A DNA stretch of 64,000 bases. It comes from Panorpa germanica (taxonomy: Eukaryota; Arthropoda; Insecta; Mecoptera; Panorpidae). The stretch is taken from contig CAVMBN010000184.1 in assembly GCA_963678705.1 (NCBI GenBank), positions 25,311 through 89,310 on the forward strand, in the 5' to 3' direction. Made by a program: the position numbers and the translations under genes. Below, in pieces: positions 1 through 64,000 of the stretch (the first letter of the stretch is position 1; every line of letters starts with the position of its first letter). Under the pieces are notes generated by a model, which saw only the letters and a list, made by a program, of their open reading frames with translations, made no database searches and was not told where the DNA came from.

Positions 1-1575
1 GTAACAAACAAATGGTAAGTAAGTAGGCATAAGTACAAGTATGTATATGAGATATTTATAGAAATTCAGTGCGCCTTTGTTGATGTCCGGTGGCCAAGTG
101 ACCTTCAAAGAATTAGACCGGCAGAAACCTATAGGTACGTCTACTGCGCTATGGAGAACTATTTTCATTGTCGAACATTATTTTACAAACCGATTACCGT
201 TCCATGAAAAGACAACTATCTAAATGTTGTCCTCAGCGATCTGTAATGGGGCCTGAGCTCTGGAACATGGTATTCGACGAGAACTGTGTTTCTCACTCGA
301 AAGGTTGTGTAGACATATGTTTTGCCAACGATAATGTGATCCTTATCGGTGCAAATAGTACAGAAACCCTAGAAAGCCGTTCTCGACCTGCTATATATAA
401 AATCTGTAGTTTCTTGAAGCTACAAAGCTACAAAACAAATACAGTAACAACGAATGATAAACTTGTAACACACCTTGCGCGTGTCACAAGGACGGAATAA
501 TGCTTAAACTCAGCAACTATGCCGACACTATACAAGGGGGCATTTATGCTAATAGTTGTGTATTGTGCTTCGGCATGGTATTACAGGATCAATCTTCCAG
601 ATCTTCCATGCAAAGAACTATGTTATTGACGATGACGCGTTGTTGCAGAACTGTATCTACAGAAGTGGTGCAAGTGATATTGGGGACAATTCCTTTAGAT
701 TTAAAAATCACTTATGCACTTACTCAAGTACAAATTACGCTAGAACTGTAAAAATTAAATCTTGATGATTTAAAATTAATGCGACAAATTTCGAGGATTT
801 AAAGTTAATGCGGCTGTAGGATAAAAGTCTGGAGACGATACCAAATATATTGCTAAAGTGATGAATGCATATATGCATAAGCTCTATCAAGACAGATGGG
901 ACTTAATACAAAAAAGAAGACCTACGTATTGGTTTACAAGGACGTTAATATTGCTTTGCAACACAAGTGGTTCCTATCTACAATGTGTGTGATCGGCTCC
1001 TGCTACTTTAGGTGAAAAAAGTGATTAAAAGTGAGAAAATAATTATGGAAAAAAATTAAATAAATTATATGAATACTTTTTTAAACGAAAAGTATTTAAG
1101 TTTGTTTTAAATTTGTGTTAATTTACCCTAAACAAAGTGTTTTTACAAAAGTTTGACAGTTGGAAACCAGTGTTAAAAACGAATTTTTCATTACGCGTAC
1201 ACGCGGTCTTATAAACATAACCTCAAATTTGTAACTTTGATGTTTGATATAAGACATTAATAAGTGCGATAGACAAAAAAAGTGATAATAATTAGGTTAG
1301 TGTTAGTGCTAAAACATCAAGTGGTTTAAAATTTAAGAAATCTGTAGAGATATATAAGAAAGACCTCATATAAATACTACAAATATACGGAAGACAAAAC
1401 GTTGCCGCCCACTATCAAGTAAGTCGAATAACATTAACTATAAATAATACTAAAACACAAAAATTAGTTTAGTTTTAAATAATAATGAGAGTGTATTAAT
1501 TGTTATAAGTGATTAAGTGAACAATATATGCGGTTTTCTTGGAAATAGTGATTGATCGTTCATGAACATTCAATG
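1..1575 (+). repeat. Unit 1
   Basis: 1,575 bp; the shortfall is an 11-bp deletion in the spacer near 1470 that removes the tataaatgcg stretch. The RT palm remnant is 168-500. The usual TGA after ARVTRTE is replaced by TAA (gaataatgc). Near-identical twin of unit 7. Confidence 0.93.
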
Positions 1576-3153
1576 GTAACAAACAAATGGTAAGTAAGTA
1601 GGCATAAGTACAAGTATGTATATGAGATATTTATAGAAATTCAGTGTGCCTTTGTTGATGTCCGGTGGCCAAGTGACCTTCAAAGAATTAGACCGGCAAA
1701 AACCTATAGGTACGTCTACTGCGCTATGGAGAACTATTTTCATTGTCGAACATTATTTTACAAACCGATTACCGTTCCATGAAAAGGCAACTATCTAAAG
1801 GTTGTCCTCAGCGATCTTTAATGGGGCCTGAGCTCTGGAACATGGTATTCGACGAGAACTGTGTTTCTCACTCGAAAGGTTGTGTAGACATATGTTTTGC
1901 CAACGATAATGTGATCCTTATCGGTGCAAATAGTACAGAAACCCTAGAAAGCCGTTCTCGACCTGCTATATATAAAATCTGTAGTTTCTTGAAGCTACGA
2001 AACAAATACAGTAACAACGAATGATAAACTTGTAACACACCTTGCGCGTGTCACAAGGACGGAATGAAGCTTAAACTCGGCAACTATGCCGACACTATAC
2101 AAGGGGGCATTTATGCTAATAATTGTGTATTGTGCTTCGGCATGGTATTACAGGATCAATCTTTCAGATCTTCCATGCAAAGAACTATGTTATTGACGAT
2201 GACGCGTTGTTGCAGAACTGTATCTACAGAAGTGTTGCAAGTGATATTAAGGACAATTCCTTTAGATTTAAAAATCACTCATGCACTTACTCAAGTACAA
2301 ATTACGCTAGAACTGAAAAAATCAAATTTTGATGATTTAAAATTAATGCGACAAATTTCGAGGATTTAAAGTTAATGCGGCTGTAGGATAAAAGTCTGGA
2401 GACGATACCAAATATATTGCCAAAGAGATGAATGCATATATGCATAAGCTCTGGCAAGACAGATGGGACTTAATACAAAAAGGAAGACCTACGTATTGGT
2501 TTACAAGGACGTTAATATTGCTTTGCAACACAAGTGGTTCCTATCTACTATGTGTGTGATCGGCTCCTGATACTTTAGGTGAAAAAAGTAATTAAAAGTG
2601 AGAAATTAATTATGAAAAAAAATTAAATAAATTATATGAATACTTTTTCAAACGAAAAGTATTTAAGTTTGTTTTAAATTTGTGTTAATTTACCCTAAAC
2701 AAAGTGTTTTTACAAAAGTTTGACAGTTGGAAACCAGTGTTAAAAACGAATTTTTCATTACGCGTACACGCGATCTTATAAACATAACCTCAAATTTGTA
2801 ACTTTGATGTTTGATATAAGACATTAATAAGTGCGATAGACAAAAAAAGTGATAATAATTAGGTTAGTGTTAGTGCTAAAACATCAAGTGGTTTAAAATT
2901 CAAGAAATCTGAAGAGATATATAAGGAAGACCTCATATAAACACTACAAATATACGGAAGACAAAAGGTTGCCGCCCACTATCAAGTAAGTCGAATAAAA
3001 TTAACTATAAATAATATTAAAACACAAGAATTAGTTTATATAAATGCGTGTTTTAAATAATAATGAGAGTGTATTAATTGTTATAAGTGATTAAGTGAAC
3101 AATATATGCGGTTTTCTTGGAAATAGTGATTGATCGTTCATGAACATTCAATG
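1576..3153 (+). repeat. Unit 2
   Basis: 1,578 bp. It lacks one 8-bp gctacaaa copy near 1995, which shifts the palm fragment (1743-2024) out of frame early. The CpG box reads cgcgatc instead of cgcggtc. Twin of unit 8. Confidence 0.93.
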
Positions 3154-4739
3154 GTAACAAACAAATAATAAGTAAGTAGGCATAAGTACAAGTATGTATA
3201 TGAGATATTTATATAAATTCAGTGTGCCTTTGTTGATGGCCGGTGGACAAGTGACCTTCAAAGAATTAGACCGGCAAAAACCAATAGGTACGTCTACTGC
3301 GCTATGGAGAACTATTTTCATTGTCGAACATTATTTTACAAACCGATTACCGTTCCATGAAAAGGCAACTATCTAAAGGTTGTCCTCAGCGATCTGTAAT
3401 GGGGCCTGAGCTCTGGAACATGGTATTCGACGAGAACTGTGTTTCTCACTCGAAAGGTTGTGTAGACATATGTTTTGCCAACGATAATGTGATCCTTATC
3501 GGTGCAAATAGTACAGAAACCCTAGAAAGCCGTTCTCGACCTGCTATATATAAAATCTGTAGTTTCTTGAAGCTACAAATCTACGAAACAAATACAGTAA
3601 CAACGAATGATAAACTTGTAACACTCCTTGCGCGTGTCACAAGGACGGAATGAAGCTTAAACTCAGCAACTATGCCGACACTATACAAGGGGGCATTTAT
3701 GCTAATAGTTGTGTATTGTGCTTTGGCATGGTATAACAGGATCAATCTTCCAGATCTTCCATGCAAAAAACTATGTTATTGACGATGACGCGTTGTTGCA
3801 GAACTGTATCTACAGAAGTAGTGCAAGTGATATTGGGGACAATTCCTTTAGATTTAAAAATCACTCATGCACTTACTTAAGTACAAATTACGCTAGAACT
3901 GAAAAAATCAAATTTTGATGATTTAAAATTAATGCGACAAATTTCGAGGATTTAAAGTTAATGCGGCTGTAGGATAAAAGTCTGAAAACGATACCAAATA
4001 TATTGCCAAAGAGATGAATGCATATATGCATAAGCTCTGGCAAGACAGATGGGACTTAATACAAAAAGGAAGACCTACGTATTGGTTTACAAGGACGTTA
4101 ATATTGCTTTGCAACACAAGTGGTTCCTATCTACTATGTGTGTGATCGGCTCCTGCTACTTTAGGTGAAAAAAGTGATTAAAAGTGAGAAATTAATTATG
4201 GAAAAAAATTAAATAAATTATATGAATACTTTTTCAAACGAAAAGTATTTAAGTTTGTTTTAAATTTGTGTTAATTTACCCTAAACAAAGTGTTTTTACA
4301 AACGTTTGACAGTTGGAAACCAGTGTTAAAAACGAATTTTTCATTACGCGTACACGCGGTCTTATAAACATAACCTCAAATTTGTAACTTTGATGTTTGA
4401 TATAAGACATTAATAAGTGCGATAGACAAAAGAAGTGATAATAATTAGGTTAGAGTTAGTGCTTAAACATCAAGTGGTTTAAAATTCAAGAAATCTGTAG
4501 AGATATATAAGGAAGACCTCATATAAACACTACAAATATACGGAAGACAAAAGGTTGCCGCCCATTATCAAGTAAGTCGAATAACATTAACTATAAATAA
4601 TATTAAAACACAAGAATTAGTTTATATAAATGCGTGTTTTAAATAATAATGAGAGTGTATTAATTGTTATAAGTGATTAAGTGAACAATATATGCGGTTT
4701 TTTTGGAAATAGTGATTGATCGTTCATAAACATTCAATG
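3154..4739 (+). repeat. Unit 3 (G-type start)
   Basis: 1,586 bp. It has the G-type motif-A region (gatggccggtggacaag, AFVDGRWT) and tatataaattc upstream, which opens a 60-codon frame at 3194-3376 containing YFTNR. Palm remnant 3321-3653. Twin of unit 9. Confidence 0.93.
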
Positions 4740-6323
4740 GTAACAAACAAATGGTAAGTAAGTAGGCATAAGTACAAGTATGTATATGAGATATTTATAG
4801 AAATTCAGTGTGCCTTTGTTGATGTCCGGTGGCCAAGTGACCTTCAAAGAATTAGACCGCCAAAAACCTATAGGTACGTCTACTGCGCTATGGAAAACTA
4901 TTTTCATTGTCGAACATTATTTTACAAACCGATTACCGTTCCATGAAAAGGCAACTATCTAAAGGTTGTCCTCAGCGATCTGTAATGGGGCCTGAGCTCT
5001 GGAACATGGTATTCGACGAGAACTGTGTTTCTCACTCGAAAGGTTGTGTAGACATATGTTTTGCCAACGATAATGTGATCCTTATCGGTGCAAATAGTAC
5101 AGAAACCCTAGAAAGCCGTTCTCGACCTGCTATATATAAAATCTGTAGTTTCTTGAAGCTACAAAGCTACGAAACAAATACAGTAACAACGAATGATAAA
5201 CTTGTAACACACCTTGCGCGTGTCACAAGGACGGAATGAAGCTTAAACTCGGCAACTATGCCGACACTATACAAGGGGGCATTTATGCTAATAGTTGTGT
5301 ATTGTGCTTCGGCATGGTATTACAGGATCAATTTTCCAGATCTTCCATGCAAAGAACTATGTTATTGACGATGACGCGTTGTTGCAGAACTGTATCTACA
5401 GAAGTGGTGCAAGTGATATTGGGGACAATTCCTTTAGATTTAAAAACACTCATGCACTTACTCAAGTACAAATTACGCTAGAACTGAAAAAATCAAATTT
5501 TGATGATTTAAAATTAATGCGACAAATTTCGAGGATTTAAAGTTAATGCGGCTGTAGGATAAAAGTCTGGAGACGATACCAAATATATTGCCAAAGAGAT
5601 GAATGCATATATGCATAAGCTCTGGCAAGACAGATGGGACTTAATACAAAAAGGAAGACCTACGTATTGGTTTACAAGGACGTTAATATTGCTTTGCAAC
5701 ACAAGTGGTTCCTATCTACTATGTGTGTGATCGGCTTCTGCTACTTTAGGTGAAAAAAGTAATTAAAAGTAAGAAATTAATTATGAAAAAAAATTAAATA
5801 AATTATATGAATACTTTTTCAAACAAAAAGTATTTAAGTTTGTTTTAAATTTGTGTTAATTCACCCTAAACAAAGTGTTTTTACAAAAGTTTGACAGTTG
5901 GAAACCAGTGTTAAAAACGAACTTTTCATTACGCGTACACGCGGTCTTATAAACATAACCTCAAATTTGTAACTTTGATGTTTGATATAAGACATTAATA
6001 AGTGCGATAAACAAAAAAGTGATATTAATTAGGTTAGTGTTAGTGCTAAAACATCAAGTGGTTTAAAATTCAAGAAATCTGTAGAGATATATAAGGAAGA
6101 CCTTATATAAACACTACAAATATACGGAAGACAAAAGGTTGCCGCCCACTATCAAGTAAGTCGAATAACATTAACTATAAATAATATTAAAACACAAGAA
6201 TTAGTTTATATAAATGCGTGTTTTAAATAATAATGAGAGTGTATTAATTGTTATAAGTGATTAAGTGAACAATATATGCGGTTTTCTTGGAAATAGTGAT
6301 TGATCGTTCATGAACATTCAATG
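4740..6323 (+). repeat. Unit 4
   Basis: 1,584 bp. V-type start. Palm remnant 4907-5239. A 1-bp deletion (aaaaacactc, near 5447) moves the frame inside the thumb remnant. Twin of unit 10. Confidence 0.93.
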
Positions 6324-8680
6324 GTAACAAACAAATGGTAAGTAAGTAGGCATAAGCACAAGTATGTATATAAGATATTTATAGAAATTCAGTGTGCCTT
6401 TGTTGATGTCCGGTGGCCAAGTGACCTTCAAAGAATTAGACCGGCAAAAACCTTTAGGTACGTCAACTGCGCTATGGAGAACTATTTTCATTGTCGAACA
6501 TTATTTTACAAACCGATTACCGTTCTATGAAAAGGCAACTATCTAAAGGTTGTCCTCAGCGATCTGTAATGGGGCCTAGGCTCTGGAACATGGTATTTGA
6601 CGAGAACTGTGTTTCTCACTCGAAAGGTTGTGTAGACATATGTTTTGCCAACGATAATGTGATCCTTATCGGTGCAAATAGTACAAATACCCTAGAAAGC
6701 CGTTCTCGACCTCCTATATATAAAATCTGTAGTTTCTTGAAGCTACAAAGCTACGAAACAAATACAGTAACAACGAATGATAAACTTGTAACACACCTTG
6801 CGCGTGTCACAAGGACGGAATGAAGCTTAAACTCGGCAACTATGCCGACACTATACAAGGGGGCATTTATGCTAATAGTTGTGTTTTGTGCTTCAACATG
6901 GTATTACAGGATCAATCTTCCAGATATTCCATGCAAAGAACTGTATCTACAGAAGTGGTGCAAGTGATATTGGGGACAATTCCTTTAGATTTAAAAATCA
7001 CTCATGCACTTACTCAAGTACAAATTACGCTAGAACTAAAAAAATCAAATTTTGATGATTTAAAATTAATGCGACAAATTTCGAGGATTTAAAGTTAATG
7101 CGGCTGTAGGATAAAAGTCTGAAAACGATACCAAATATATTGCCAAAGAGATGAATGCATATATGCATAAGCTCTGGCAAGACAGATGGGACTTAATACA
7201 AAAAGGAAGACCTACGTATTGGTTTACAAGGACGTTAATATTGCTTTGCAACACAAGTGGTTCCTATCTACTATGTGTGTGATCGGCTCCTGCTACTTTA
7301 GGTGAAAAAAGTGATTAAAAGTGAGAAATTAATTATGGAAAAAAATTAAATAAATTATATGAATACTTTTTCAAACGAAAAGTATTTAAGTTTGTTTTAA
7401 ATTTGTGTTAATTTACCCTAAACAAAGTGTTTTTACAAAAGTTTGACAGTTGGAAACCAGTGTTAAAAACGAATTTTTCATTACGCGTACACGCGGTCTT
7501 ATAAACATAACCTCAAATTTGTAACTTTTATGTTTGATATAAGACATTAATAAGTGCGATAGACAAAAAAAGTGATAATAATTAAGTTAGTGTTAGTGCT
7601 AAAACATCAAGTGGTATAAAATTCAAGAAATCTGTAGAGATATAAAAGGAAGACCTCATATAAACACTACAAATATACGGAAGACAAAAGGTTGCCGCCC
7701 ACTATCAAGTAAGTCGAATAACAATAACTATAAATAACTAGCTTTTACCCCCGTCGCAAGCGACGTTTTTTATTTTATGAGTGGCTTGAATTTCATGTCA
7801 AAATTTAATTCCATTTTTAAATTGAAATAATAAATAAACTCGTCCTATATTAATTTTAAATTTAATAACAATTAATTTTTCATACAAACTGACTAAGAAA
7901 ATACATTTTTTATATCAAAATAAAATTTTTTTTGAATTTATGCGATATTTGGACAACTTTTTTTCAAAATTTGTGATTTTTTTTTTCGATTCGTAAATAA
8001 GTTACCAAGGTTAGCCTATATACAAAATTTCAACTTTCTAGCACAATTTTTACTCTCGGAAAATACTGCCCCCGTGCCCCCAAATAAAATTTTGAAATTT
8101 TGATTTCTTTTTCATTAGTAATATACTTAATTATTCTAGAATTCAGAATATGAACTTTCTTCAAAGTTTCCTACCGGGCCACCGAATTTCTTTAACCCCC
8201 CCTTTTTCAATTTTTGAATTTCTAATTTTTGAGAAATATCAGCCTTAAATAGCTTAATACACATGCAAAATTTCAACTTTCTATCTTTTACGACTTAAAA
8301 GTAATACAGCAAAAAAGGGATCACTTTTTTTCCAGTTTTTCCAAAATTACGGGTTTCCAGGAAATTTAGGGAAAAATCCAGGGACGCCAAAAGTCTTAGA
8401 ATTTTTTTCTCTACGAATTAGGAAATTTTAAAAAACTTCCCTGGAGCCGTTTTCGAAATTCCATACAAAATTCAAACCAAACATATAAACATATAAACAT
8501 ATAAGAATTTAAATAAACACTTGGAACATTATAATATAGGATATTAAAACTCAAGAATTAGTTTATATAAATTCGTGTTTTAAATAATAATGAGAGTGTA
8601 TTAATTGTTATAAGTGATTAAGTGAACAATATATGCGGTTTTCTTGGAAATAGTGATTGATCGTTCATGAACATTCAATG
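6324..8680 (+). repeat. Unit 5, interrupted by 804-bp insertion
   Basis: 2,357 bp: 1,553 bp of unit sequence plus a foreign insertion at 7737-8540. It also has a 33-bp in-frame deletion between two gaact copies in the thumb remnant (near 6941). Palm remnant 6491-6823 carries private changes (GPRLWN, NTLES). Unit 11 shares the deletion but not the insertion. Confidence 0.92.
7737..8540. mobile_element. 804-bp interspersed repeat inserted in unit 5
   Basis: Unit sequence is interrupted between ctataaata (7736) and atattaaaac (8541). The insertion starts actagcttttaccc, is T-rich, has no useful ORF and ends with three acatata copies and aataatata-like AT sequence. The start and end resemble short interspersed repeats common in lepidopteran genomes, from memory. 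A 3-bp ata duplication is possible but cannot be separated from the AT context. No transposase is seen; class unknown. Confidence 0.75.
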
Positions 8681-10275
8681 GTAACAAACAAATGGTAAGT
8701 AAGTAGGCATAAGTACAAGTATGTATATGAGATATTTATAGAAATTCAGTGTGCCTTTGTTAAAGTCCGGTGGCCAAGTGACCTTCAAGGAATTAGACCG
8801 GCAAAAACCTATAGATACGTCTACTGCGCTATGGAGAACTATTTTCATTGTCAAACATTATTTTACAAACCGATTACCGTTCCATGAAAAGGCAACTATC
8901 TAAAGGTTGTCCTCAGCGATCTGTAATGTGGGCCTGAGCTCTGGAACATGGTATTCGACGAGAACTGTGTTTCTCACTCGAAAGGTTGTGTAGACATATG
9001 TTTCGCTAACGATAATGTGATCCTTATCGGTGCAAATAGTACAGAAACCCTAGAAAGCCGTTCTCGACCTGCAATATATAAAATCTGTAGTTTCTTGAAG
9101 CTACAAAGCTACAAAGCTACGAAACAAATACAGTAACAACGAATGATAAACTTGTAACACACCTTGCGCGTGTCACAAGGACGGAATGAAGCTTAAACTC
9201 GGCAACTATGCCGACACTATACAAGGGGGCATTTATGCTAATAGTTGTGTATTGTGCTTCGGCATGGTATTACAGGATCAATCTTCCAGATGTTCCATGC
9301 AAAGAACTATGTTATTGACGATGACGCGTTGTTGCAGAACTGTATCTACAGAAGTGGTGCAAGTGATATTGGGGACAATTCCTTTAGATTTAAAAATCAC
9401 TCATGCACTTACTCAAGTACAAATTACGCTAGAACAATAAAAATCAAATTTTGATGATTTAAAATTAATGCGACAAATTTCGAGGATTTAAAGTTAATGC
9501 GGCTGTAGGATAAAAGTCTGGAGACGATACCAAATATATTGCCAAAGAGATGAATGCATATATGCATAAGCTCTGGCAAGACAGATGGGACTTAATACAA
9601 AAGGGAATACCTACGTATTAGTTTACAAGGACGTTAATATTGCTTTGCAACACAAGTGGTTCCTATCTACTATGTGTGTGATCGGCTCCTGCTACTTTAG
9701 GTGAAAAAAGTGATTAAAAGTGAGAAATTAATTATGGAAAAAAATTAAATAAATTATATGAATACTTTTTCAAACGAAAAGTATATAAGTTTGTTTTAAA
9801 TTTGTGTTAATTTACCCTAAACAAAGTGTTTTTACAAAAGTTTGACAGTTGGAAACCAGTGTTAAAAACGAATTTTTCATTACGCGTACACGCGGTCTTA
9901 TAAACGTAACCCCAAATTTGTAACTTTGATGTTTGATATAAGACATTAATAAGTGCGATAGACAAAAAAAGTGATAATAGTTAGGTTAGTCTTAGTGCTA
10001 AAACATCAAGTGGTTTAAAATTCAAGAAATCTGTAGAGATATATAAGGAAGACCTCATATAAACACTACAAATATACGGAAGACAAAAGGTTGCCGCCCA
10101 CTATCAAGTAAGTCGAATAACATTAACTATAAATAATATTAAAACACAAGAATTAGTTTATATAAATGCGTGTTTTAAATAATAATGAGAGTGTATTAAT
10201 TGTTATAAGTGATTAAGTGAACAATATATGCGGTTTTCTTGGAAATAGTAATTGATCGTTCATGAACATTCAATG
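8681..10275 (+). repeat. Unit 6
   Basis: 1,595 bp. It gains an extra 8-bp gctacaaa copy near 9110 and one base in gtaatgtgggcc (near 8928), so the palm open frame is only 8948-9136. It lies between the two copies of the 10,275-bp block. Confidence 0.92.
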
Positions 10276-11850
10276 GTAACAAACAAATGGTAAGTAAGTA
10301 GGCATAAGTACAAGTATGTATATGAGATATTTATAGAAATTCAGTGCGCCTTTGTTGATGTCCGGTGGCCAAGTGACCTTCAAAGAATTAGACCGGCAGA
10401 AACCTATAGGTACGTCTACTGCGCTATGGAGAACTATTTTCATTGTCGAACATTATTTTACAAACCGATTACCGTTCCATGAAAAGACAACTATCTAAAT
10501 GTTGTCCTCAGCGATCTGTAATGGGGCCTGAGCTCTGGAACATGGTATTCGACGAGAACTGTGTTTCTCACTCGAAAGGTTGTGTAGACATATGTTTTGC
10601 CAACGATAATGTGATCCTTATCGGTGCAAATAGTACAGAAACCCTAGAAAGCCGTTCTCGACCTGCTATATATAAAATCTGTAGTTTCTTGAAGCTACAA
10701 AGCTACAAAACAAATACAGTAACAACGAATGATAAACTTGTAACACACCTTGCGCGTGTCACAAGGACGGAATAATGCTTAAACTCAGCAACTATGCCGA
10801 CACTATACAAGGGGGCATTTATGCTAATAGTTGTGTATTGTGCTTCGGCATGGTATTACAGGATCAATCTTCCAGATCTTCCATGCAAAGAACTATGTTA
10901 TTGACGATGACGCGTTGTTGCAGAACTGTATCTACAGAAGTGGTGCAAGTGATATTGGGGACAATTCCTTTAGATTTAAAAATCACTTATGCACTTACTC
11001 AAGTACAAATTACGCTAGAACTGTAAAAATTAAATCTTGATGATTTAAAATTAATGCGACAAATTTCGAGGATTTAAAGTTAATGCGGCTGTAGGATAAA
11101 AGTCTGGAGACGATACCAAATATATTGCTAAAGTGATGAATGCATATATGCATAAGCTCTATCAAGACAGATGGGACTTAATACAAAAAAGAAGACCTAC
11201 GTATTGGTTTACAAGGACGTTAATATTGCTTTGCAACACAAGTGGTTCCTATCTACAATGTGTGTGATCGGCTCCTGCTACTTTAGGTGAAAAAAGTGAT
11301 TAAAAGTGAGAAAATAATTATGGAAAAAAATTAAATAAATTATATGAATACTTTTTTAAACGAAAAGTATTTAAGTTTGTTTTAAATTTGTGTTAATTTA
11401 CCCTAAACAAAGTGTTTTTACAAAAGTTTGACAGTTGGAAACCAGTGTTAAAAACGAATTTTTCATTACGCGTACACGCGGTCTTATAAACATAACCTCA
11501 AATTTGTAACTTTGATGTTTGATATAAGACATTAATAAGTGCGATAGACAAAAAAAGTGATAATAATTAGGTTAGTGTTAGTGCTAAAACATCAAGTGGT
11601 TTAAAATTTAAGAAATCTGTAGAGATATATAAGAAAGACCTCATATAAATACTACAAATATACGGAAGACAAAACGTTGCCGCCCACTATCAAGTAAGTC
11701 GAATAACATTAACTATAAATAATACTAAAACACAAAAATTAGTTTAGTTTTAAATAATAATGAGAGTGTATTAATTGTTATAAGTGATTAAGTGAACAAT
11801 ATATGCGGTTTTCTTGGAAATAGTGATTGATCGTTCATGAACATTCAATG
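10276..11850 (+). repeat. Unit 7
   Basis: 1,575 bp. Twin of unit 1, including the 11-bp spacer deletion and the TAA after ARVTRTE. Palm remnant 10443-10775. Confidence 0.93.
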
Positions 11851-13427
11851 GTAACAAACAAATGGTAAGTAAGTAGGCATAAGTACACGTATGTATATGA
11901 GATATTTATAGAAATTCAGTGTGCCTTTGTTGATGTCCGGTGGCCAAGTGACCTTCAAAGAATTAGACCGGCAAAAACCTATAGGTACGTCTACTGCGCT
12001 ATGGAGAACTATTTTCATTGTCGAACATTATTTTACAAACCGATTACCGTTCCATGAAAAGGCAACTATCTAAAGGTTGTCCTCAGCGATCTTTAATGGG
12101 GCCTGAGCTCTGGAACATGGTATTCGACGAGAACTGTGTTTCTCACTCGAAAGGTTGTGTAGACATATGTTTTGCCAACGATAATGTGATCCTTATCGGT
12201 GCAAATAGTACAGAAACCCTAGAAAGCCGTTCTCGACCTGCTATATATAAAATCTGTAGTTTCTTGAAGCTACGAAACAAATACAGTAACAACGAATGAT
12301 AAACTTGTAACACACCTTGCGCGTGTCACAAGGACGGAATGAAGCTTAAACTCGGCAACTATGCCGACACTATACAAGGGGGCATTTATGCTAATAATTG
12401 TGTATTGTGCTTCGGCATGGTATTACAGGATCAATCTTTCAGATCTTCCATGCAAAGAACTATGTTATTGACGATGACGCGTTGTTGCAGAACTGTATCT
12501 ACAGAAGTGTTGCAAGTGATATTAAGGACAATTCCTTAGATTTAAAAATCACTCATGCACTTACTCAAGTACAAATTACGCTAGAACTGAAAAAATCAAA
12601 TTTTGATGATTTAAATTAATGCGACAAATTTCGAGGATTTAAAGTTAATGCGGCTGTAGGATAAAAGTCTGGAGACGATACCAAATATATTGCCAAAGAG
12701 ATGAATGCATATATGCATAAGCTCTGGCAAGACAGATGGGACTTAATACAAAAAGGAAGACCTACGTATTGGTTTACAAGGACGTTAATATTGCTTTGCA
12801 ACACAAGTGGTTCCTATCTACTATGTGTGTGTGATCGGCTCCTGATACTTTAGGTGAAAAAAGTAATTAAAAGTGAGAAATTAATTATGAAAAAAAATTA
12901 AATAAATTATATGAATACTTTTTCAAACGAAAAGTATTTAAGTTTGTTTTAAATTTGTGTTAATTTACCCTAAACAAAGTGTTTTTACAAAAGTTTGACA
13001 GTTGGAAACCAGTGTTAAAAACGAATTTTTCATTACGCGTACACGCGATCTTATAAACATAACCTCAAATTTGTAACTTTGATGTTTGATATAAGACATT
13101 AATAAGTGCGATAGACAAAAAAGTGATAATAATTAGGTTAGTGTTAGTGCTAAAACATCAAGTGGTTTAAAATTCAAGAAATCTGAAGAGATATATAAGG
13201 AAGACCTCATATAAACACTACAAATATACGGAAGACAAAAGGTTGCCGCCCACTATCAAGTAAGTCGAATAAAATTAACTATAAATAATATTAAAACACA
13301 AGAATTAGTTTATATAAATGCGTGTTTTAAATAATAATGAGAGTGTATTAATTGTTATAAGTGATTAAGTGAACAATATATGCGGTTTTCTTGGAAATAG
13401 TGATTGATCGTTCATGAACATTCAATG
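11851..13427 (+). repeat. Unit 8
   Basis: 1,577 bp. Twin of unit 2 with the same 8-bp loss. It differs by one substitution (11888) and small run-length indels near 12536, 12615, 12826 and 13118. Palm remnant 12018-12299. Confidence 0.93.
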
Positions 13428-15014
13428 GTAACAAACAAATAATAAGTAAGTAGGCATAAGTACAAGTATGTATATGAGATATTTATATAAATTCAGTGTG
13501 CCTTTGTTGATGGCCGGTGGACAAGTGACCTTCAAAGAATTAGACCGGCAAAAACCAATAGGTACGTCTACTGCGCTATGGAGAACTATTTTCATTGTCG
13601 AACATTATTTTACAAACCGATTACCGTTCCATGAAAAGGCAACTATCTAAAGGTTGTCCTCAGCGATCTGTAATGGGGCCTGAGCTCTGGAACATGGTAT
13701 TCGACGAGAACTGTGTTTCTCACTCGAAAGGTTGTGTAGACATATGTTTTGCCAACGATAATGTGATCCTTATCGGTGCAAATAGTACAGAAACCCTAGA
13801 AAGCCGTTCTCGACCTGCTATATATAAAATCTGTAGTTTCTTGAAGCTACAAATCTACGAAACAAATACAGTAACAACGAATGATAAACTTGTAACACTC
13901 CTTGCGCGTGTCACAAGGACGGAATGAAGCTTAAACTCAGCAACTATGCCGACACTATACAAGGGGGCATTTATGCTAATAGTTGTGTATTGTGCTTTGG
14001 CATGGTATAACAGGATCAATCTTCCAGATCTTCCATGCAAAAAACTATGTTATTGACGATGACGCGTTGTTGCAGAACTGTATCTACAGAAGTAGTGCAA
14101 GTGATATTGGGGACAATTCCTTTAGATTTAAAAATCACTCATGCACTTACTTAAGTACAAATTACGCTAGAACTGAAAAAATCAAATTTTGATGATTTAA
14201 AATTAATGCGACAAATTTCGAGGATTTAAAGTTAATGCGGCTGTAGGATAAAAGTCTGAAAACGATACCAAATATATTGCCAAAGAGATGAATGCATATA
14301 TGCATAAGCTCTGGCAAGACAGATGGGACTTAATACAAAAAGGAAGACCTACGTATTGGTTTACAAGGACGTTAATATTGCTTTGCAACACAAGTGGTTC
14401 CTATCTACTATGTGTGTGATCGGCTCCTGCTACTTTAGGTGAAAAAAAGTGATTAAAAGTGAGAAATTAATTATGGAAAAAAATTAAATAAATTATATGA
14501 ATACTTTTTCAAACGAAAAGTATTTAAGTTTGTTTTAAATTTGTGTTAATTTACCCTAAACAAAGTGTTTTTACAAACGTTTGACAGTTGGAAACCAGTG
14601 TTAAAAACGAATTTTTCATTACGCGTACACGCGGTCTTATAAACATAACCTCAAATTTGTAACTTTGATGTTTGATATAAGACATTAATAAGTGCGATAG
14701 ACAAAAGAAGTGATAATAATTAGGTTAGAGTTAGTGCTTAAACATCAAGTGGTTTAAAATTCAAGAAATCTGTAGAGATATATAAGGAAGACCTCATATA
14801 AACACTACAAATATACGGAAGACAAAAGGTTGCCGCCCATTATCAAGTAAGTCGAATAACATTAACTATAAATAATATTAAAACACAAGAATTAGTTTAT
14901 ATAAATGCGTGTTTTAAATAATAATGAGAGTGTATTAATTGTTATAAGTGATTAAGTGAACAATATATGCGGTTTTTTTGGAAATAGTGATTGATCGTTC
15001 ATAAACATTCAATG
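13428..15014 (+). repeat. Unit 9 (G-type start)
   Basis: 1,587 bp. Twin of unit 3, with one extra A in the run at 14442-14448. Palm remnant 13595-13927; YFTNR frame 13468-13650. Confidence 0.93.
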
Positions 15015-30685: not shown

Positions 30686-30715
30686 GTAACAAACAAATGG
30701 TAAGTAAGTAGGCAT

Positions 30716-30799
30716 AAGTACAAGTATGTATATGAGATATTTATAGAAATTCAGTGTGCCTTTGTTGATGTCCGGTGGCCAAGTGACCTTCAAAGAATT
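30716..30799 (+). pseudogene. RT remnant segment A: motif A region (unit 20)
   Basis: Reading from 30716 gives KYVYEIFIEIQCAFVDVRW, then PSDLQRI. This resembles the R1-group motif A context (FLDIQGAFDNVWWP), where the Asp of AFD is a catalytic metal ligand. Here a Val is inserted before the Asp (AFVD). A stop lies 15 bp upstream in this frame, so the retroelement match seems to begin near here. RT fingers, endonuclease and ORF1 are absent. Moderately sure; the match is by eye. Confidence 0.6.
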
Positions 30800-31185: not shown

Positions 31186-31203
31186 AGCTTAAACTCAGCA
31201 ACT

Positions 31204-31487: not shown

Positions 31488-31524
31488 AGTTAATGCGGCT
31501 GTAGGATAAAAGTCTGGAGACGAT

Positions 31525-31700: not shown

Positions 31701-31756
31701 AAAAAGTGATTAAAAGTGAGAAATTAATTATGGAAAAAAATTAAATAAATTATATG

Positions 31757-32262: not shown

Positions 32263-32270
32263 ATTCAATG

Positions 32271-48132: not shown

Positions 48133-49718
48133 GTAACAAACAAATGGTAAGTAAGTAGGCATAAGTACAAGTATGTATATGAGATATTTATAGAAATTCA
48201 GTGTGCCTTTGTTGATTTCCGGTGGCCAAGTGACCTTCAAAGAATTAGACCGGCAAAAACCTATAGGTACGTCTACTGCGCTATGGAGAACTATTTTCAT
48301 AGTCGAACATTATTTTACAAACCGATTACCGTTCCATGAAAAGGCAACTATCTAAAGGTTGTCCTCAGCGATCTGTAATGGGGCCTGAGCTCTGGAACAT
48401 GGTATTCGACGAGAACTGTGTTTCTCACTCGAAAGGTTGTGTAGACATATGTTTTGCCAACGATAATGTGATCCTTATCGGTGCAAATAGTACAGAAACC
48501 CTGGAAAGCCGTTCTCGACCTGCTATATATAAAATCAGTAGTTTCTTGAAGCTACAAAGCTACGAAACAAATACAGTAACAACGAATAATAAACTTGTAA
48601 CACACATTGCGCGTGTCACAAGGACGGAATGAAGCTTAAACTCGGCAACTATGCCGACACTATACAAAGGGGCATTTATGCTAATAGTTGTGTATTGTGC
48701 TTCGGCATAATATTACAGGATCAATCTTTCAGATCTTCCATGCAAAGAACTATGTTATTGACGATGACGCGTTGTTGCAGAACTGTATCTACAGAAGTGG
48801 TGCAAGTGATATTAAGGACAATTCCTTTAGATTTAAAAATCACTCATGCACTTACTCAAGTACAAATTACGCTAGAACTGAAAAAATCAAATTTTGATGA
48901 TTTAAAATTAATGCGACAAATTTCGAGGATTTAAAGTTAATGCGGCTGTAGGATAAAAGTCTGGAGACGATACCAAATATATTGCAAAAAAGATGAATGC
49001 ATATATGCATAAGCTCTGGCAAGACAGATGGGACTTAATACAAAAAGGAAGACCTACGTATTGGTTTACAAGGACGTAAATATTGCTTTGCAACACAAGT
49101 GGTTCCTATCTACTATGTGTGTGATCGGCTCCTGCTACTTTCGGTGAAAAAAGTGATTAAAAGTGAGAAATTATTTATGGAAAAAAATTAAATAAATTAT
49201 ATGAATACTTTTTCAAACGAAAAGTATTTAAGTTTGTTTTAAATTTGTGTTAATTTACCCTAAACAAAGTGTTTTTACAAAAGTTTGACAGTTGGAAACC
49301 AGTGTTAAAAACGAATTTTTCATTACGCGTACACGCGGTCTTATAAACATAACCTCAAATTTGTAACTTTGATGTTTGATATAAGACATTAGTAAGTGCG
49401 ATAGACAAAAAAAGTGATAATAATTAGGTTAGTGTTAGTGCTAAAACATCAAGTGGTTTAAAATTCAAGAAATCTGTAGAGATATATAAGGAAGACCTCA
49501 TATAAACACTACAAATATACGGAAGACAAAAGGTTGCCGCCCACTATCAAGTAAGTCGAATAACATTAACTATAAATAATATTAAAACACAAGAATTAGT
49601 TTATATAAATGCGTGTTATAAATAATAATGAGAGTGTATTAATTGTTATAAGTGATTAAGTGAACAATATATGCGGTTTTCTTGGAAATAGTGATTGATC
49701 GTTCATGAACATTCAATG
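48133..49718 (+). repeat. Unit 31, dimer C copy 2
   Basis: 1,586 bp. S-type like unit 29, but with an ordinary start region (gttcatgaac). Palm remnant 48336-48632. Confidence 0.94.
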
Positions 49719-51308
49719 GTAACAAACAAATTGTAAGTAAGTAGGCATAAGTACGAGTATGTATATGAAATATTTATAGAAATTCAGTGTGCCTTTGTTG
49801 ATGTCCGGTGGCCAAGTGACCTTCAAAGAATTAGACCGGCAAAAACCTATAGGTACGTCTACTGCGCTATGGAGAACTATTTTCATTGTCGAACATTATT
49901 TTACAAACCGATTACCGTTCCATGAAAAAGCAACTATCTAAAGGTTGTCCTCAGCGATCTGTAATGGGGCCTGAGCTCTGGAACATGGTATTCGACGAGA
50001 ACTGTGTTTCTCACTCGAAAGGTTGTGTAGACATATGTTTTGCCAACGATAATATGATCCTTATCGGTGCAAACAGTACAGAAACCCTAGAAAGCCGTTC
50101 TCGACCTGCTATATATAAAATCTGTAGTTTCTAGAAGCTACAAAGCTACGAAACAAATACAGTAACAACGAATGATAAACTTGTAACACACCTTGCGCGT
50201 GTCACAAGGACGGAATGAATCTTAAACTCGGCAACTATGTCGACACTATACAAGGGGGCATTTATGCTAATAGTTGTGAATTGTGCTTCGGCATGGTATT
50301 ACAAGATCAATCTTAGAGATCTTCCATGCAAAGAACTATGTTATTGACGATGACGCGTTGTTGCAGAACGGTATCTACAGAAGTGGTGCAAGTGATATTA
50401 GGGACAATTCCTTTAGATTTAAAAATCACTCATGCACTTACTCAAGTACAAATTACGCTAGAACTAAAAAAATCAAATTTTTATGATTTAAAATTAATGC
50501 GACAAATTTCGAGGATTTAAAGTTAATGCGGCTGTAGGATAAAAGTCTGGAGACGATACCAAATATATTGCAAAAAAGATGAATGCATATATGCATAAGC
50601 TCTGGCAAGACAGATGGGACTTAATACAAAAAGGAAGACCTACGTATTGGTTTACAAGGACGTAAATATTGCTTTGCAACACAAGTGGTTCCTATTATCT
50701 ACTATGTGTGTGATCGGCTCCTGCTACTTTCGGTGAAAAAAGTGATTAAAAGTGAGAAATTATTTATGGAAAAAAATTAAATAAATTATATGAATACTTT
50801 TTCAAACTAAAAGTATTTAAGTTTGTTTTAAATTTGTGTTAATTTACCCTAAACAAAGTGTTTTTACAAAAGTTTGACAGTTGGAAACCAGTGTTAAAAA
50901 CGAATTTTTCATTACGCGTACACGCGGTCTTATAAACATAACCTCAAATTTGTAACTTTGATGTTTGATATAAGACATTAATAAGTGCGATAGACAAAAA
51001 AAGTGATAATAATTAGGTTAGTGTTAGTGCTAAAACATCAAGTGGTTTAAAATTCAAGAAATCTGTAGAGATATATAAGGAAGACCTCATATAAACACTA
51101 CAAATATACGGAAGACAAAAGGTTTGCCGCCCACTATCAAGTAAGTCGAATAACATTAACTATAAATAATATTAAAACACAAGAATTAGTTTATATAAAT
51201 GCGTGTTTTAAATAATAATGAGAGTGTATTAATTGTTATAAGTGATTAAGTGAACAATATATGCGGTTTTCTTGGAAATAGTGATTGATCGTTCATGAAC
51301 ATTCAATG
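49719..51308 (+). repeat. Unit 32, dimer C copy 2
   Basis: 1,590 bp. M-type with the same TAG as unit 30; palm fragment 49886-50134. Extra 3 bp in cctattatctac (near 50694) and one T in ggtttgcc (near 51122). Confidence 0.94.
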
Positions 51309-52894
51309 GTAACAAACAAATGGTAAGTAAGTAGGCATAAGTACAAGTATGTATATGAGATATTTATAGAAATTCAGTGTGCCTTTGTTGATGTCCGGTG
51401 GCCAAGTGACCTTCAAAGAATTAGACCGGCAAAAACCTATAGGTACGTCTACTGCGCTATGGAGAACTATTTTCATTGTCGAACATTATTTTACAAACCG
51501 ATTACCGTTCCATGAAAAGGCAACTATCTAAAGGTTGTCCTCAGCGATCTGTAATGGGGCCTGAGCTCTGGAACATGGTATTCGACAAAAACTGTGTTTT
51601 TCACTCGAAAGGTTGTGTAGACATATGTTTTGCCAACGATAATGTGATCCTTATCGGTGCAAATAGTACAGAAACCCTGGAAAGCCGTTCTCGACCTGCT
51701 ATATATAAAATCAGTAGTTTCTTGAAGCTACAAAGCTACGAAACAAATACAGTAACAACGAATAATAAACTTGTAACACACATTGCGCGTGTCACAAGGA
51801 CGGAATGAAGCTTAAACTCAGCAACTATGCCGACACTATACAAAGGGGCATTTATGCTAATAGTTGTGTATTGTGCTTCAGCATAATATTACAGGATCAA
51901 TCTTTCAGATCTTCCATACAAAGAACTATGTTATTGACGATGACGCGTTGTTGCAGAACTGTATCTACAGAAGTGGTGCAAGTGATATTGGGGACAATTC
52001 CTTTAGATTTAAAAATCACTCATGCACTTACTCAAGTACAAATTACGCTAGAACTGAAAAAATCAAATTTTGATGATTTAAAATTAATGCGACAAATTTC
52101 GAAGATTTAAAGTTAATGCGGCTGTAGGATAAAAGTCTGGAGACGATACCAAATATATTGCAAAAAAGATGAATGCATATATGCATAAGCTCTGGCAAGA
52201 CAGATGGGACTTAATACAAAAAGGAAGACCTACGTATTGGTTTACAAGGACGTAAATATTGCTTTGCAACACAAGTGGTTCCTATCTACTATGTTTGTGA
52301 TCGGCTCCTGCTACTTTCGGTGAAAAAAGTGATTAAAAGTGAGAAATTATTTATGGAAAAAAATTAAATAAATTATATGAATACTTTTTCAAACGAAAAG
52401 TATTTAAGTTTGTTTTAAATTTGTGTTAATTTACCCTAAACAAAGTGTTTTTACAAAAGTTTGACAGTTGGAAACCAGTGTTAAAAACGAATTTTTCATT
52501 ACGCGTACACGCGGTCTTATAAACATAACCTCAAATTTGTAACTTTGATGTTTGATATAAGACATTAATAAGTGCGATAGACAAAAAAAGTGATAATAAT
52601 TAGGTTAGTGTTAGTGCTAAAACATCAAGTGGTTTAAAATTCAAGAAATCTGTAGAGATATATAAGGAAGACCTCATATAAACACTACAAATATACGGAA
52701 GACAAAAGGTTGCCGCCCACTATCAAGTAAGTCGAATAACATTAACTATAAATAATATTAAAACACAAGAATTAGTTTAAATAAATGCGTGTTTTAAATA
52801 ATAATGAGAGTGTATTAATTGTTATAAGTGATTAAGTGAACAATATATGCGGTTTTCTTGGAAATAGTGATTGATCGTTCATGAACATTCAATG
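51309..52894 (+). repeat. Unit 33, dimer C copy 3
   Basis: 1,586 bp. S-type. Palm remnant 51476-51808 with private FDKNCVFH. Confidence 0.94.
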
Positions 52895-54357
52895 GTAACA
52901 AACAAATTGTAAGTAAGTAGGCATAAGTACAAGTATGTATATGAAATATTTATAGAAATTCAGTGTGCCTTTGTTGATGTCCGGTGGCCAAGTGACCTTC
53001 AAAGAATTAGACCGGCAAAAACCTATAGGTACGTCTTCTGCGCTATGGAGAACTATTTTCATTGTCGAACATTATTTTACAAACCGATTACCGTTCCATG
53101 AAAAAGCAACTATCTAAAGGTTGTCCTCAGCGATCTGTAATGGGGCCTGAGCTCTGGAACATGGTATTCGACGAGAACTGTGTTTCTCACTCGAAAGGTT
53201 GTGTAGACATATGTTTTGCCAACGATAATATGATCCTTATCGGTGCAAACAGTACAAAAACCCTAGAAAGCCGTTCTCGACCTGCTATATATAAAATCTG
53301 TAGTTTCTAGAAGCTACAAAGCTACGAAACAAATATTAGTAACAACGAATGATAAACTTGTAACACACCTTGCGCGTGTCACAAGGACGGAATGAATCTT
53401 AAACTCGGCAACTATGCCGACACTATACAAGGGGGGCATTTATGCTAATAGTTGTGAATTGTGCTTCGGCATGGTATTACAAGATCAATCTTCCAGATCT
53501 TCCATGCAAAGAACTATGTTATTGACGATGACGCGTTGTTGCAGAACTGTATCTACAGAAGTGGTGCAAGTGATATTGGGGACAATTCCTTTAGATTTAA
53601 AAATCACTCATGCACTTACTCAAGTACAAATTGAGCTAGAACTGAAAAAAATCAAATTTTGATGATTTAAAATTAATGCGACAAATTTCGAGGATTTAAA
53701 GTTAATGCGGCTGTAGGATAAAAGTCTGGAGACGATACCAAATATATTGCCAAAGAGATGAATGCATATATGCATAAGCTCTGGCAAGACAGATGGGACT
53801 TAATACAAAAAGGAAGACCTACGTATTGGTTTACAAGGACGTTAATATTGCTTTGCAACACAAGTGGTTCCTATCTACTATGTGTGTGATCGGCTCCTGC
53901 TACTTTAGGTGAAAAAAGTGATTAAAAGTGAGAAATTAATTATGGAAAAAAATTAAATAAATTATATGAATACTTTTTCAAACGAAAAGTTTTTAGGTTT
54001 GTTTTAAATTTGAGTTAATTTACCCTAAACAAAGTGTTTTTACAAAAGTTTGACAGTTGGAAACCAGTGTTAAAAACGAATTTTTCATTACGCGTACACG
54101 CGGTCTTATAAACATAACCTAAAAATTTGTAACTTTGATGTTTGATATAAGACAATAATAAGTGCGATAGACAAAAAAAGTGATAATAATTAGGTTAGTG
54201 TTAGTGCTAAAACATCAAGTGGTTTAAAATTCAAGAAATCTGTAGAGATATATAAGAAAGACCTCATATAAACACTACAAATATACGGAAGACAAAAGGT
54301 TGCCGCCCACTATCAAGTAAGTCGAATAACATTAACTATAAATAATATTAAAACACA

Positions 54358-54373
54358 AGAATTAGTTTATATA
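54358..54373 (+). repeat. Target-site duplication, left copy
   Basis: agaattagtttatata, identical to 54612-54627. Other units carry it once. Confidence 0.88.
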
Positions 54374-54611
54374 TTTTTTTTTTTTTTTTTATTTAACGTC
54401 GGCCTATTTCCGATGCTGAGTCCTATCACCGACGACCTCCTTCAATGTTGGCAGTATTTATGGTGTCGTGGCCTCATATATGTGGGCTACACCACTGCCT
54501 AATAAATGTACGATTATGTATGACCATAATCAATATAAGTTCATAATAACCAAACCCAGAAAATATATATCTGGTCCGGGGATCGAACCCGAAGACACAA
54601 CAGTCGACGTC
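54374..54611 (-). mobile_element. SINE-like retroposon, minus strand, in unit 34
   Basis: 238 bp. On the minus strand it starts gacgtcgactg, has ggttcgatccccgg (a good tRNA/Pol III B box) about 24 nt in, and ends in a 17-nt poly(A), seen as T at 54374-54390. No A box fits before the B box, so it is probably 5'-truncated, or it is a LINE 3' end with a tRNA-like motif. Flanking 16-bp direct repeats show target-primed insertion. Confidence 0.8.
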
Positions 54612-54627
54612 AGAATTAGTTTATATA
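54612..54627 (+). repeat. Target-site duplication, right copy
   Basis: Second copy of the 16-bp duplication flanking the minus-strand retroposon. Confidence 0.88.
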
Positions 54628-54738
54628 AATGCGTGTTTTAAATAATAATGAGAGTGTATTAATTGTTATAAGTGATTAAGTGAACAATATATGCGGTTTT
54701 CTTGGAAATAGTGATTGATTGTTCATAACCATTCAATG

Positions 54739-59496: not shown

Positions 59497-61082
59497 GTAA
59501 CAAACAAATGGTAAGTAAGTAGGCATAAGTACAAGTATGTATATGAGATATTTATAGAAATTCAGTGTGCCTTTGTTAATGTCCGGTGGCCAAGTGACCT
59601 TCAAAGAATTAGACCGGCAAAAATCTATAGGTACGTCTACTGCGCTATGGAGAACTATTTTCATTGTCGAACATTATTTTACAAACCGATTACCGTTCCA
59701 TGAAAAGGCAACTATCTAAAGGTTGTCCTCAGCGATCTGTAATGGGGCCTGAGCTCTGGAACATGGTATTCGACGAGAACTGTGTTTCTCACTCGAAAGG
59801 TTGTGTAGACATATGTTTTGCCAACGATAATGTGATCCTTATCGGTGCAAATAGTACAGAAACCCTAGAAAGCCGTTCTCGACCTGCTATATATAAAATC
59901 TGTAGTTTCTTGAAGCTACAAAGCTACGAAACAAATACAGTAACAACGAATGATAAACTTGTAACACACCTTGCGCGTGTCACAAGGACGGAATGAAGCT
60001 TAAACTCGGCAACTATGCCGACACTATACAAGGGGGCATTTATGCTAATAGTTGTGTATTGTGCTTCGGCATAGTATAACAGGATCAATCTTCCAGATCT
60101 TCCATGCAAAGAACTATGTTATTGACGATGACGCGTTGTTGCAGAACTGTATCTACAGAAGTGGTGCAAGTGATATTAGGGACAATTCCTTTAGATTTAA
60201 AAATCACTCATGCACTTACTCAAGTCCAAATTACGCTAGAACTGAAAAAATCAAATTTTGATGATTTAAAATTAATGCGACAAATTTCGAGGATTTAAAG
60301 TTAATGCGGCTGTAGGATAAAAGTCTGGAGACGATACCAAATATATTGCCAAAGAGATGAATGCATATATGCATAAGCTCTGGCAAGACAGATGGGACTT
60401 AATACAAAAAGAAAGACCTACGTATTGGTTTACAAGGACGTTGATATTGCTTTGCAACACAAGTGGTTCCTATCTACTATGTGTGTGATTGGCTCCTGCT
60501 ACTTTAGGTGAAAAAAGTGATTAAAAGTGAGAAATTAATTATGGAAAAAAATTAAATAAATTATATGAATACTTTTTCAAACGAAAAGTATTTAAGTTTG
60601 TTTTAGATTTGTGTTAATTTACCCTAAAATAAGTGTTTTCACAAAAGTTTGACAGTTGGAAACCAGTGTTAAAAACTAATTTTTCATTACGCGTACACGC
60701 GGTCTTATAAACATAACCTCAAATTTGTAACTTTGATGTTTGATATAAGACATTAATAAGTGCGATAGACAAAAAAAGTGATAATAATTAGGTTAGTGTT
60801 AGTGCTAAAACATCAAGTGGTTTAAAATTCAAGAAATCTTTAGAGATATATAAGGAAGACCTCATATAAACACTACAAATATACGGAAGACAAAAGGTTG
60901 CCGCCCACTATCAAGTAAGTCGAATAACATTAACTATAAATAATATTAAAACACAAAAATTAGTTTATATAAATGCGTGTTTTAAATAATAATAAGAGTG
61001 TATTAATTAATATAAGTGATTAAGTGAACAAAATATGCGGTTTTCTTGGAAATAGTGATTGATCGTTCATGAACATTCAATG
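59497..61082 (+). repeat. Unit 38
   Basis: 1,586 bp. Marked by ctttgttaatgtcc and caaaaatctatag, both also present in the partial unit 42, 4,366 bp on. Palm remnant 59664-59996. Confidence 0.93.
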
Positions 61083-61679
61083 GTAACAAACAAATGGTAA
61101 GTAAGTAGGCATAAGTACAAGTATGTATATGAGATATTTATAGAAATTCAGTGTGCCTTTGTTGATGTCCGGTGGCCAAGTGACCTTCAAAGAATTAGAC
61201 CGGCAAAAACCTATAGGTACGTCTACTGCGCTATAAAGAACTATTTTCATTGTCGAACATTATTTTACAAACCGATTACCGTTCCATGAAAAGGCAACTA
61301 TCTAAAGGTTGTCCTCAGCGATCTGTAATAGGGCCTGAGCTCTGGAACATGGTATTCGACGAGAACTGTGTTTCTCGAAATGAATGCATATAGTGTTAGT
61401 GCTTAAACATCAAGTGGTTTAAAATTCAAGAAATCTTTAGAGATATAAAAGAAAGACCTCATATAAACACTACAAATATACGGAAGACAAAAGGTTGCCG
61501 CCCACTATCAAGTAAGTCGAATAACATTAACTATAAATAATATTAAAACACAAGAATTAGTTTATATAAATGCGTGTTTTAAATAATAATGAGAGTGTAT
61601 TAATTGTTATAAGTGATTAAGTAAACAATATATGCGGTTTTCTTGGAAATAGTGATTGATCGTTCATGAACATTCAATG
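61083..61679 (+). repeat. Unit 39, rearranged short unit
   Basis: 597 bp. After gtgtttctcgaaa (61380) it jumps to tgaatgcatata, then at 61393 straight to gtgttagtgc in the spacer. RT beyond FDENCVS, including FAND and the thumb, is gone. Confidence 0.94.
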
Positions 61680-63265: not shown

Positions 63266-63862
63266 GTAACAAACAAATGGTAAGTAAGTAGGCATAAGTA
63301 CAAGTATGTATATGAGATATTTATAGAAATTCAGTGTGCCTTTGTTGATGTCCGGTGGCCAAGTGACCTTCAAAGAATTAGACCGGCAAAAACCTATAGG
63401 TACGTATACTGCGCTATGAAGAACTATTTTCATTGTCGAACATTATTTTACAAACCGATTACCGTTCCATGAAAAGGCAACTATCTAAAGGTTGTCCTCA
63501 GCGATCTGTAATGGGGCCTGAGCTCTGGAACATGGTATTCGACGAGAACTGTGTTTCTCGAAATGAATGCATATAGTGTTAGTGCTAAAACATCAAGTGG
63601 TTTAAAATTCAAGAAATCTGTAGAGATATATAAGGAAGACCTCATATAAACACTACAAATATACGGAAGACTAAAGGTTGCCGCCCACTATCAAGTAAGT
63701 TGAATAACATTAACTATAAATAATATTAAAACACAAGAATTAGTTTATATAAATGCGTGTTTTAAATAATAATGAGAGTGTATTGATTGTTATAAGTGAT
63801 TAAGTGAACAATATATGCGGTTTTCTTGGAAATAGTGATTGATCGTTTATGAACATTCAATG
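63266..63862 (+). repeat. Unit 41, rearranged short unit
   Basis: 597 bp. Same internal junctions as unit 39 (63554-63577), 2,183 bp later. Minor differences include gtgctaaaac versus gtgcttaaac. Confidence 0.94.
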
Positions 63863-64000
63863 GTAACAAACAAATGGTAAGTAAGTAGGCATAAGTACAA
63901 GTATGTATATGAGATATTTATAGAAATTCAGTGTGCCTTTGTTAATGTCCGGTGGCCAAGTGACCTTCAAAGAATTAGACCGGCAAAAATCTATAGGTAC
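63863..64000 (+). repeat. Unit 42, partial (runs off window)
   Basis: 138 bp visible. Shares ttaatgtcc and aaatctatagg with unit 38. Confidence 0.9.

Follow-up and report, generated by a model that had tools for sequence, protein, structure and literature searches.

How does a fragment of a dead retrotransposon come to fill a scaffold, and by what route has it multiplied? This question is raised by a 64,000-nucleotide stretch of the scorpionfly Panorpa germanica (hereafter the window; contig CAVMBN010000184.1 of assembly GCA_963678705.1, positions 25,311 to 89,310). The window is occupied by a satellite array made of head-to-tail copies of a 1,586-bp unit (1..64000, + strand; blastn and anchor search), and part of this unit is related to the reverse transcriptase (RT) of long interspersed nuclear elements (LINEs), the non-long-terminal-repeat (non-LTR) retrotransposons. 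We suggest that a fragment of LINE open reading frame 2 (ORF2) became fused to spacer DNA, and that the product very probably spread by recombination rather than by retrotransposition.

The satellite array and its unit

The unit consensus covers 98.3% of the window in blastn, and each of the 49 pieces is on the + strand. The 35 full-length copies are 97.7-99.4% identical to the consensus, and the anchor search finds 41 unit starts, most commonly spaced by 1,586 bp, plus a partial unit at 1-1574. The preliminary description of this DNA had proposed a head-to-tail macrosatellite of about 1.6 kb with more than 40 copies filling at least 64 kb, and this is what we find. The mean pair identity of the window units is 97.3%, short and insertion-bearing units counted in, and the autocorrelation of the window peaks at 1586, 3172, 6345 and 4759. 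Runs of more than 10 bp that are free of consensus are the insertions at 7738-8529 and 54374-54611 and, at two joints of deleted units, 14 bp each. One of the deleted units, of 597 bp, has lost about 1 kb (61082..61678, + strand), and a second lies at 63265-63861. Most window units are reported to carry a 29-bp internal tandem duplication, found in unit u24 at 39371..39427 (+ strand).

The scaffold (G000:C199, 89,310 bases) ends with the last base of the window, and the array runs on upstream. There, 20,000 of the other 25,310 bases were read and are satellite, except for a copy of the 792-bp insertion described below and 871 bp at C199:9130-10000. The window gives no Rfam match at gathering scores and no tRNA in a tRNA scan, and a CENP-B box was not found in the unit.

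The reverse-transcriptase remnant

In u24 the RT-derived part stays open for 160 amino acids (aa) in one frame (38633..39112, + strand). It spans RT motifs A to C, and its catalytic motif is degraded to FAND. The Pfam family RVT_1 matches this segment with an E-value of 3.4e-4 over residues 7-122 (profile positions 66-166 of 205), an older satellite copy reaches 3e-6, and RVT_1 is matched by three of the seven satellite pieces tried. The RT part of u24 could also be aligned to LINE RTs of the same genome. The unit thus holds RT-homologous sequence, the mark of a LINE-ORF2-derived satellite.

Several observations weigh against this homology. The u24 score of 20.8 bits is under the Pfam curated cut-off of 29.6, and the match of the older copy is likewise under it. 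The other four of the seven pieces, including an older piece of 165 aa that covers motifs A to C, are without an RVT_1 match at E 1, and the 165-aa piece has no sequence match in the PDB. Because unrelated families reach E-values down to 0.0078 in the same Pfam scans, the weaker RVT_1 matches are only modest. One of the five genome RTs aligned no better than shuffles, and for L049 the score is reached by 4 of 1,000 shuffles. The stop-free runs of 160-165 aa are moderately unusual (8 of 2,000 Markov sequences reach them, in each case), and the 121-aa open run of the young consensus is hardly unusual (92 of 2,000). The AlphaFold model of an older RT piece has a pLDDT of 44 and was not used for fold searches.

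The segment that follows in u24 (39113..39618, + strand; unit positions about 500-1005) is presumably the remainder of the RT-derived part. Its frames are broken and its resemblance to RT was judged by eye, with no profile match; in the consensus, pieces such as TVSTEVVQVILGTIPLDLK... and HKLWQDRWDLIQKGRPTYWF are spread over several frames. The rest of u24 is an AT-rich spacer without recognised homology (39619..40200, + strand; unit positions about 1006-1586). The RVT_1 match and the broken consensus frame agree with the earlier proposal of a dead RT fragment plus spacer. The share of about 60% then assigned to RT is backed by the profile for residues 7-122 of 38633-39112, while the remainder of that share comes from reading the frames by eye. 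Since the frame is broken and the catalytic motif is lost, the RT part is predicted to be a passenger that makes no enzyme.

The non-consensus rate is 1.18% in the spacer and 1.51% in the RT-derived part. Base composition accounts for most of this gap, because the rates are equal at A/T sites (0.83% vs 0.81%) and differ little at G/C sites (2.14% vs 2.57%), and we make no claim of constraint on the spacer. The third-codon-position signal in young units is weak (1.30, 1.13 and 1.52%).

Higher-order structure and the mode of amplification

A 10,274-bp higher-order repeat extends over 1..18011 (+ strand). The stretch -3337..7737, which starts before the window, recurs at 6937..18011; self-comparison of the window joined to its preceding 10 kb shows this as a match of 11,079 bp, offset by 10,274 bp and 99.74% identical. 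Accordingly, units u01-u03 and u07-u09 are 99.94-100% identical, with u02 equal to u08 and u03 equal to u09 at 100%. A two-unit period is found at 44960..54737 (+ strand), where u28, u30 and u32 alternate with u29, u31 and u33 (u28/u30, 99.43%; u29/u31, 98.80%). Near-identical alternating units also occur elsewhere: u20, a representative full-length unit (32270..33855, + strand), is 100% identical to u22 at 35442-37027, and the identity is 99.68% for u21/u23 and 99.94% for u16/u18. With the tandem duplication and the two-unit periods, the multilayer organisation proposed earlier is present.

Recombination is the simplest driver of this amplification, because no working RT is found in the units read and a whole multi-unit block has been duplicated. 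Repeated target-primed insertion of an active retroelement would also produce copies, and it would account for the RT sequence within the unit; inserting in tandem is a known behaviour of site-specific LINEs. However, the consensus RT frame is broken and its motif is changed, the joins within 1-6000 show by eye neither a poly(A) tail nor a flanking duplication, and the 11-kb multi-unit block was duplicated whole. We therefore consider target-primed insertion very unlikely as the source of the copies.

Abundance, distribution and age layers

The assembly comprises 464,208,970 bases in 249 contigs, with 21 chromosome scaffolds. A 24-base word of the unit occurs in it exactly 4,315 times (2,265 + 2,050), and never in the reversed control. 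The word is carried exactly by 104 of 155 sampled copies, a sample biased to strong matches, and extrapolation gives about 6,400 copies, 10.2 Mb or 2.2% of the assembly. Both this high genome copy number and the long homogenised head-to-tail arrays of one unit are those of satellite DNA.

Locations were taken from 100 of the 4,315 matches, from 100 of 118, 100 of 314 and 100 of 351 matches, from 150 rows of a protein search of the genome, and from one complete set of 33 places; contigs late in order are under-sampled. The satellite lies on at least 7 of the 21 chromosome scaffolds (1, 3, 6, 7, 10, 11 and 15) and on many unplaced ones, and it reaches well past the 64 kb given as a minimum in the preliminary description. 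Chromosome 1 has an older block at 8.81 Mb and further matches at 10.95-14.83 Mb, where the strand switches several times. Other matches are at 17.75-18.36 Mb on chromosome 3, 14.27-14.30 and 18.49-18.52 Mb on chromosome 6, 5.85-5.87 Mb on chromosome 7, 0.31-0.63 Mb on chromosome 10 (older form), 0.61-0.71 Mb on chromosome 11 and 1.37-1.52 Mb on chromosome 15. Continuous filling of these ranges was checked solely at sampled loci. For example, 12 of 12 sampled 10-kb stretches at 12.46-14.67 Mb of chromosome 1, picked beside strong matches, are satellite, one of them with an 839-bp insertion.

The array could in principle be a product of assembly. Whole-unit identical stretches such as those of u02/u08 and u03/u09 are hard to place, and the scaffold of the window is itself unplaced. 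However, several chromosome scaffolds and many unplaced ones carry the same unit in different variants, the copies of the 10.3-kb repeat differ (99.74% identity), and the assembly has 52x HiFi coverage and a QV of 59.9 (PMC11464959). With the unit present on more than one chromosome scaffold of such an assembly, it is scarcely credible that the array as such is an artefact. How many copies there are exactly, and in what order the blocks lie, is uncertain.

The divergence set holds 136 full units, with 64, 1, 4 and 9 units from chromosomes 1, 6, 7 and 15, respectively; the older block is represented by two units. Identity is 97.80% between adjacent units, 97.73% between other units of the same locus, 97.24% between units at different loci of one chromosome or contig, and 97.35% between different contigs, several of which are unplaced and may come from a single chromosome. 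The contigs have thus hardly diverged from one another, as a recent spread of the copies would predict. The changes are mostly G>A and C>T. Old and young units are 92.72% identical (two older full units), and the older layer keeps the motif FADD where the young array has FAND. Among the matches listed, the FADD-version word is found at locus L041 (chromosome 1, 8.813-8.823 Mb; 6 places), at 0.31-0.63 Mb of chromosome 10 (46 places) and otherwise on unplaced scaffolds. Some units of L041 are without the 29-bp internal duplication. A 200-base probe from near the chromosome 7 block (L043) aligns with the unit at 82% along 104 bases, so an older layer is present there as well.

Insertions in the satellite

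A 792-bp AT-rich insertion occupies 7738..8529 at unit position about 1440. The scaffold holds a 100% identical copy 10,275 bp further upstream; the insertion was therefore amplified together with the higher-order repeat. The 839-bp insertion on chromosome 1 (L022, 1869-2707) sits at a near-equal unit position (about 1440-1449 for the two), and this site is possibly an insertion hot spot. Identity of the two insertions was considered and rejected, as they share no similarity. A 238-bp insertion at 54374..54611 (- strand) begins with poly-T, contains a tRNA B-box-like GGATCGAACCC and has a flanking duplication of approximately GAATTAGTTTATATA; from these features we take it to be SINE-like (short interspersed nuclear element). 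A copy in a chromosome 6 flank (L038) is 99.5% identical over 212 bp.

On chromosome 6, at 18.485-18.494 Mb (L037, L038 and L042), 1,133-bp inverted repeats that are 98% identical flank about three satellite units exactly. They are the terminal inverted repeats, starting TAGGTGAGGAGAGCGGG, of a transposon-like element that adjoins the satellite block on both sides. The edges of this block, at unit positions 251/258, had suggested carriage by a circular intermediate; this idea was dropped, since the flanks are inverted-repeat termini. The exact terminus word occurs 37 times in the assembly (by hand count, 13 convergent pairs at distances of 12-22 kb, plus 11 singles), and nine termini (four pairs and one single) lie at 18.41-18.51 Mb of chromosome 6. 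The framing of the three-unit block and the 13 convergent pairs could mean that satellite pieces were dispersed inside a large terminal-inverted-repeat transposon. However, the elements run outward from the satellite, and GGCCTGAG is present at either end of the block; we read them as insertions in the satellite rather than as its carriers. In addition, among 49 loci plus the window, the exact terminus word is in L037 and L038 only. Dispersal by this transposon is thus a highly improbable explanation.

Lineage of the element

The R1-like label, also given in the preliminary description, is tentative; it comes from the RT motifs AFDNVWWP, CPQ..GP.LWN and TVST..LQV..G..PLDL, which fall short of establishing clade membership. 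In particular, we read CPQ.SV.GP.LWN as an R1-type motif. Four other RTs of the genome, presumably Jockey-like, have GVPQGS.[LI].P.L[YF] at the same site. Insertion in 28S rDNA, as for R1 proper, is not seen here, as the window has no rRNA family match in Rfam; other R1-clade elements are not known to be located in rDNA. The satellite therefore resembles R1-clade LINEs in these RT motifs and differs from them in that the units read contain no intact ORF and the window offers no rRNA context.

It counts against a LINE origin that an intact parent element was not found in the genome. In a protein search of the genome, the best 150 of 12,465 candidates were all 100% identical to the satellite query. 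Among the best 150 of 6,918 RVT_1 candidates, five were read in part; four look Jockey-like and none parent-like. Viral contigs, prokaryote genomes and phages gave no relatives of an RT piece or of a 24-base word of the unit. RVT_1 matches whose frames stay open for 926 and 946 aa were also noted, with identical scores at many places on many chromosomes. These matches, two of which we read as Jockey-like LINEs, probably belong to recently active families.

Proposed origin and role

We infer the following route. A non-LTR retrotransposon copy, probably of an R1-like lineage, would have broken and kept only the palm-to-thumb part of its RT ORF, beside about 0.6 kb of other, AT-rich DNA. The 1.6-kb junction sequence thus formed would have been duplicated in tandem. 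Unequal exchange and gene conversion within and between blocks may have multiplied it further, possibly with circular copies re-entering the chromosomes. The outcome would be the satellite blocks, reaching megabase size, that are seen on several chromosomes of the scorpionfly.

What might such blocks do? The panorpid family has achiasmate male meiosis and variable C-bands, which are terminal, subterminal or intermediate. The satellite blocks are internal on chromosomes 1 and 3 and nearer the ends on 10, 11 and 15, positions that resemble this C-band pattern without proving heterochromatin. By analogy, the satellite is likely to have a structural role and to form constitutive heterochromatin of these C-band types. 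It thus offers a candidate heterochromatin sequence for the panorpid scorpionflies. A bolder proposal is that it forms the main C-band DNA of Panorpa and also a pairing or cohesion platform for homologues in achiasmate male meiosis. We hold this to be improbable; if true, a dead retrotransposon fragment would have turned into a chromosome-segregation sequence.

The satellite might alternatively be the functional, CENP-A-bearing centromere satellite of the species. A megabase-scale region inside chromosome 1, a single site each on chromosomes 3, 7, 10, 11 and 15 among the matches listed, and the high homogenisation of the units would fit this. However, chromosome 1 has two separate sites (8.81 and 10.9-14.8 Mb), and so has chromosome 6 (14.27 and 18.49 Mb). 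As a weaker point, a variant word with 314 matches is not found on chromosomes 2, 4, 5, 8, 9 and 10 among the matches listed, which follow contig order up to chromosome 11; chromosome 10 has the older form, other variants are partly listed, and arrays may sit on unplaced scaffolds. A centromeric function is thus unlikely, and we favor the heterochromatin role.

Other observations in the genome

(TTAGG)6 is absent from the whole assembly, which makes telomeres of the common insect type improbable. The mitochondrial contig (C249, 16,386 bp) contains a full-length cox1 match. Pieces like cox1 occur at 19 further places, on chromosome scaffolds and one unplaced contig (17 above the family cut-off and 2 below), and are most likely nuclear copies of mitochondrial DNA. 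On chromosome 5 two such pieces recur with the same scores at 24.09 and 24.19 Mb, a distance of about 104 kb.

Comparison with known satellites

The titles and abstract openings of the papers listed on satellite or repetitive DNA of Panorpa and scorpionflies do not describe this repeat, nor do those in the best-ranked part of the papers on R1 or non-LTR elements with satellites. In the main text of the Panorpa cognata genome paper, the terms 'satellite', 'centromer' and 'tandem' are all absent. A Lepidoptera paper on rDNA repeats names R1 retrotransposons alongside satellite DNA (PMC10257491), and LINE untranslated regions (UTRs) are mentioned among satellite sources (PMC12628747).

The preliminary description had called a satellite built from an RT ORF unusual. 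This part of it is weakened, since satellites from LINE ORF2 are named for HinfI/SCR1 of chicken (from CR1), PROsat of Phodopus (L1) and Pvc20 of the harbour seal (L1), and the 18HT satellite of Drosophila melanogaster is given as derived from HeT-A/TART (PMC9659126). HinfI/SCR1 is alike in containing part of a LINE ORF2, but it comes from a CR1 element and includes the 3' UTR, whereas the Panorpa unit joins a different LINE fragment to a spacer in an insect. The monomers of PROsat and Pvc20 are also related to ORF2; however, PROsat has only a small L1-like region, and the RT-derived part of the Panorpa unit is estimated at 60%. 18HT is likewise an insect satellite from non-LTR elements, but it derives from telomeric retroelements and lies in the Y centromeric region, and no such link is shown for the Panorpa satellite. 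The older FADD and young FAND layers allow the change of a LINE fragment into megabases of satellite to be followed. Thus, the Panorpa satellite is a new example of a known route, from LINE ORF2 to satellite DNA.

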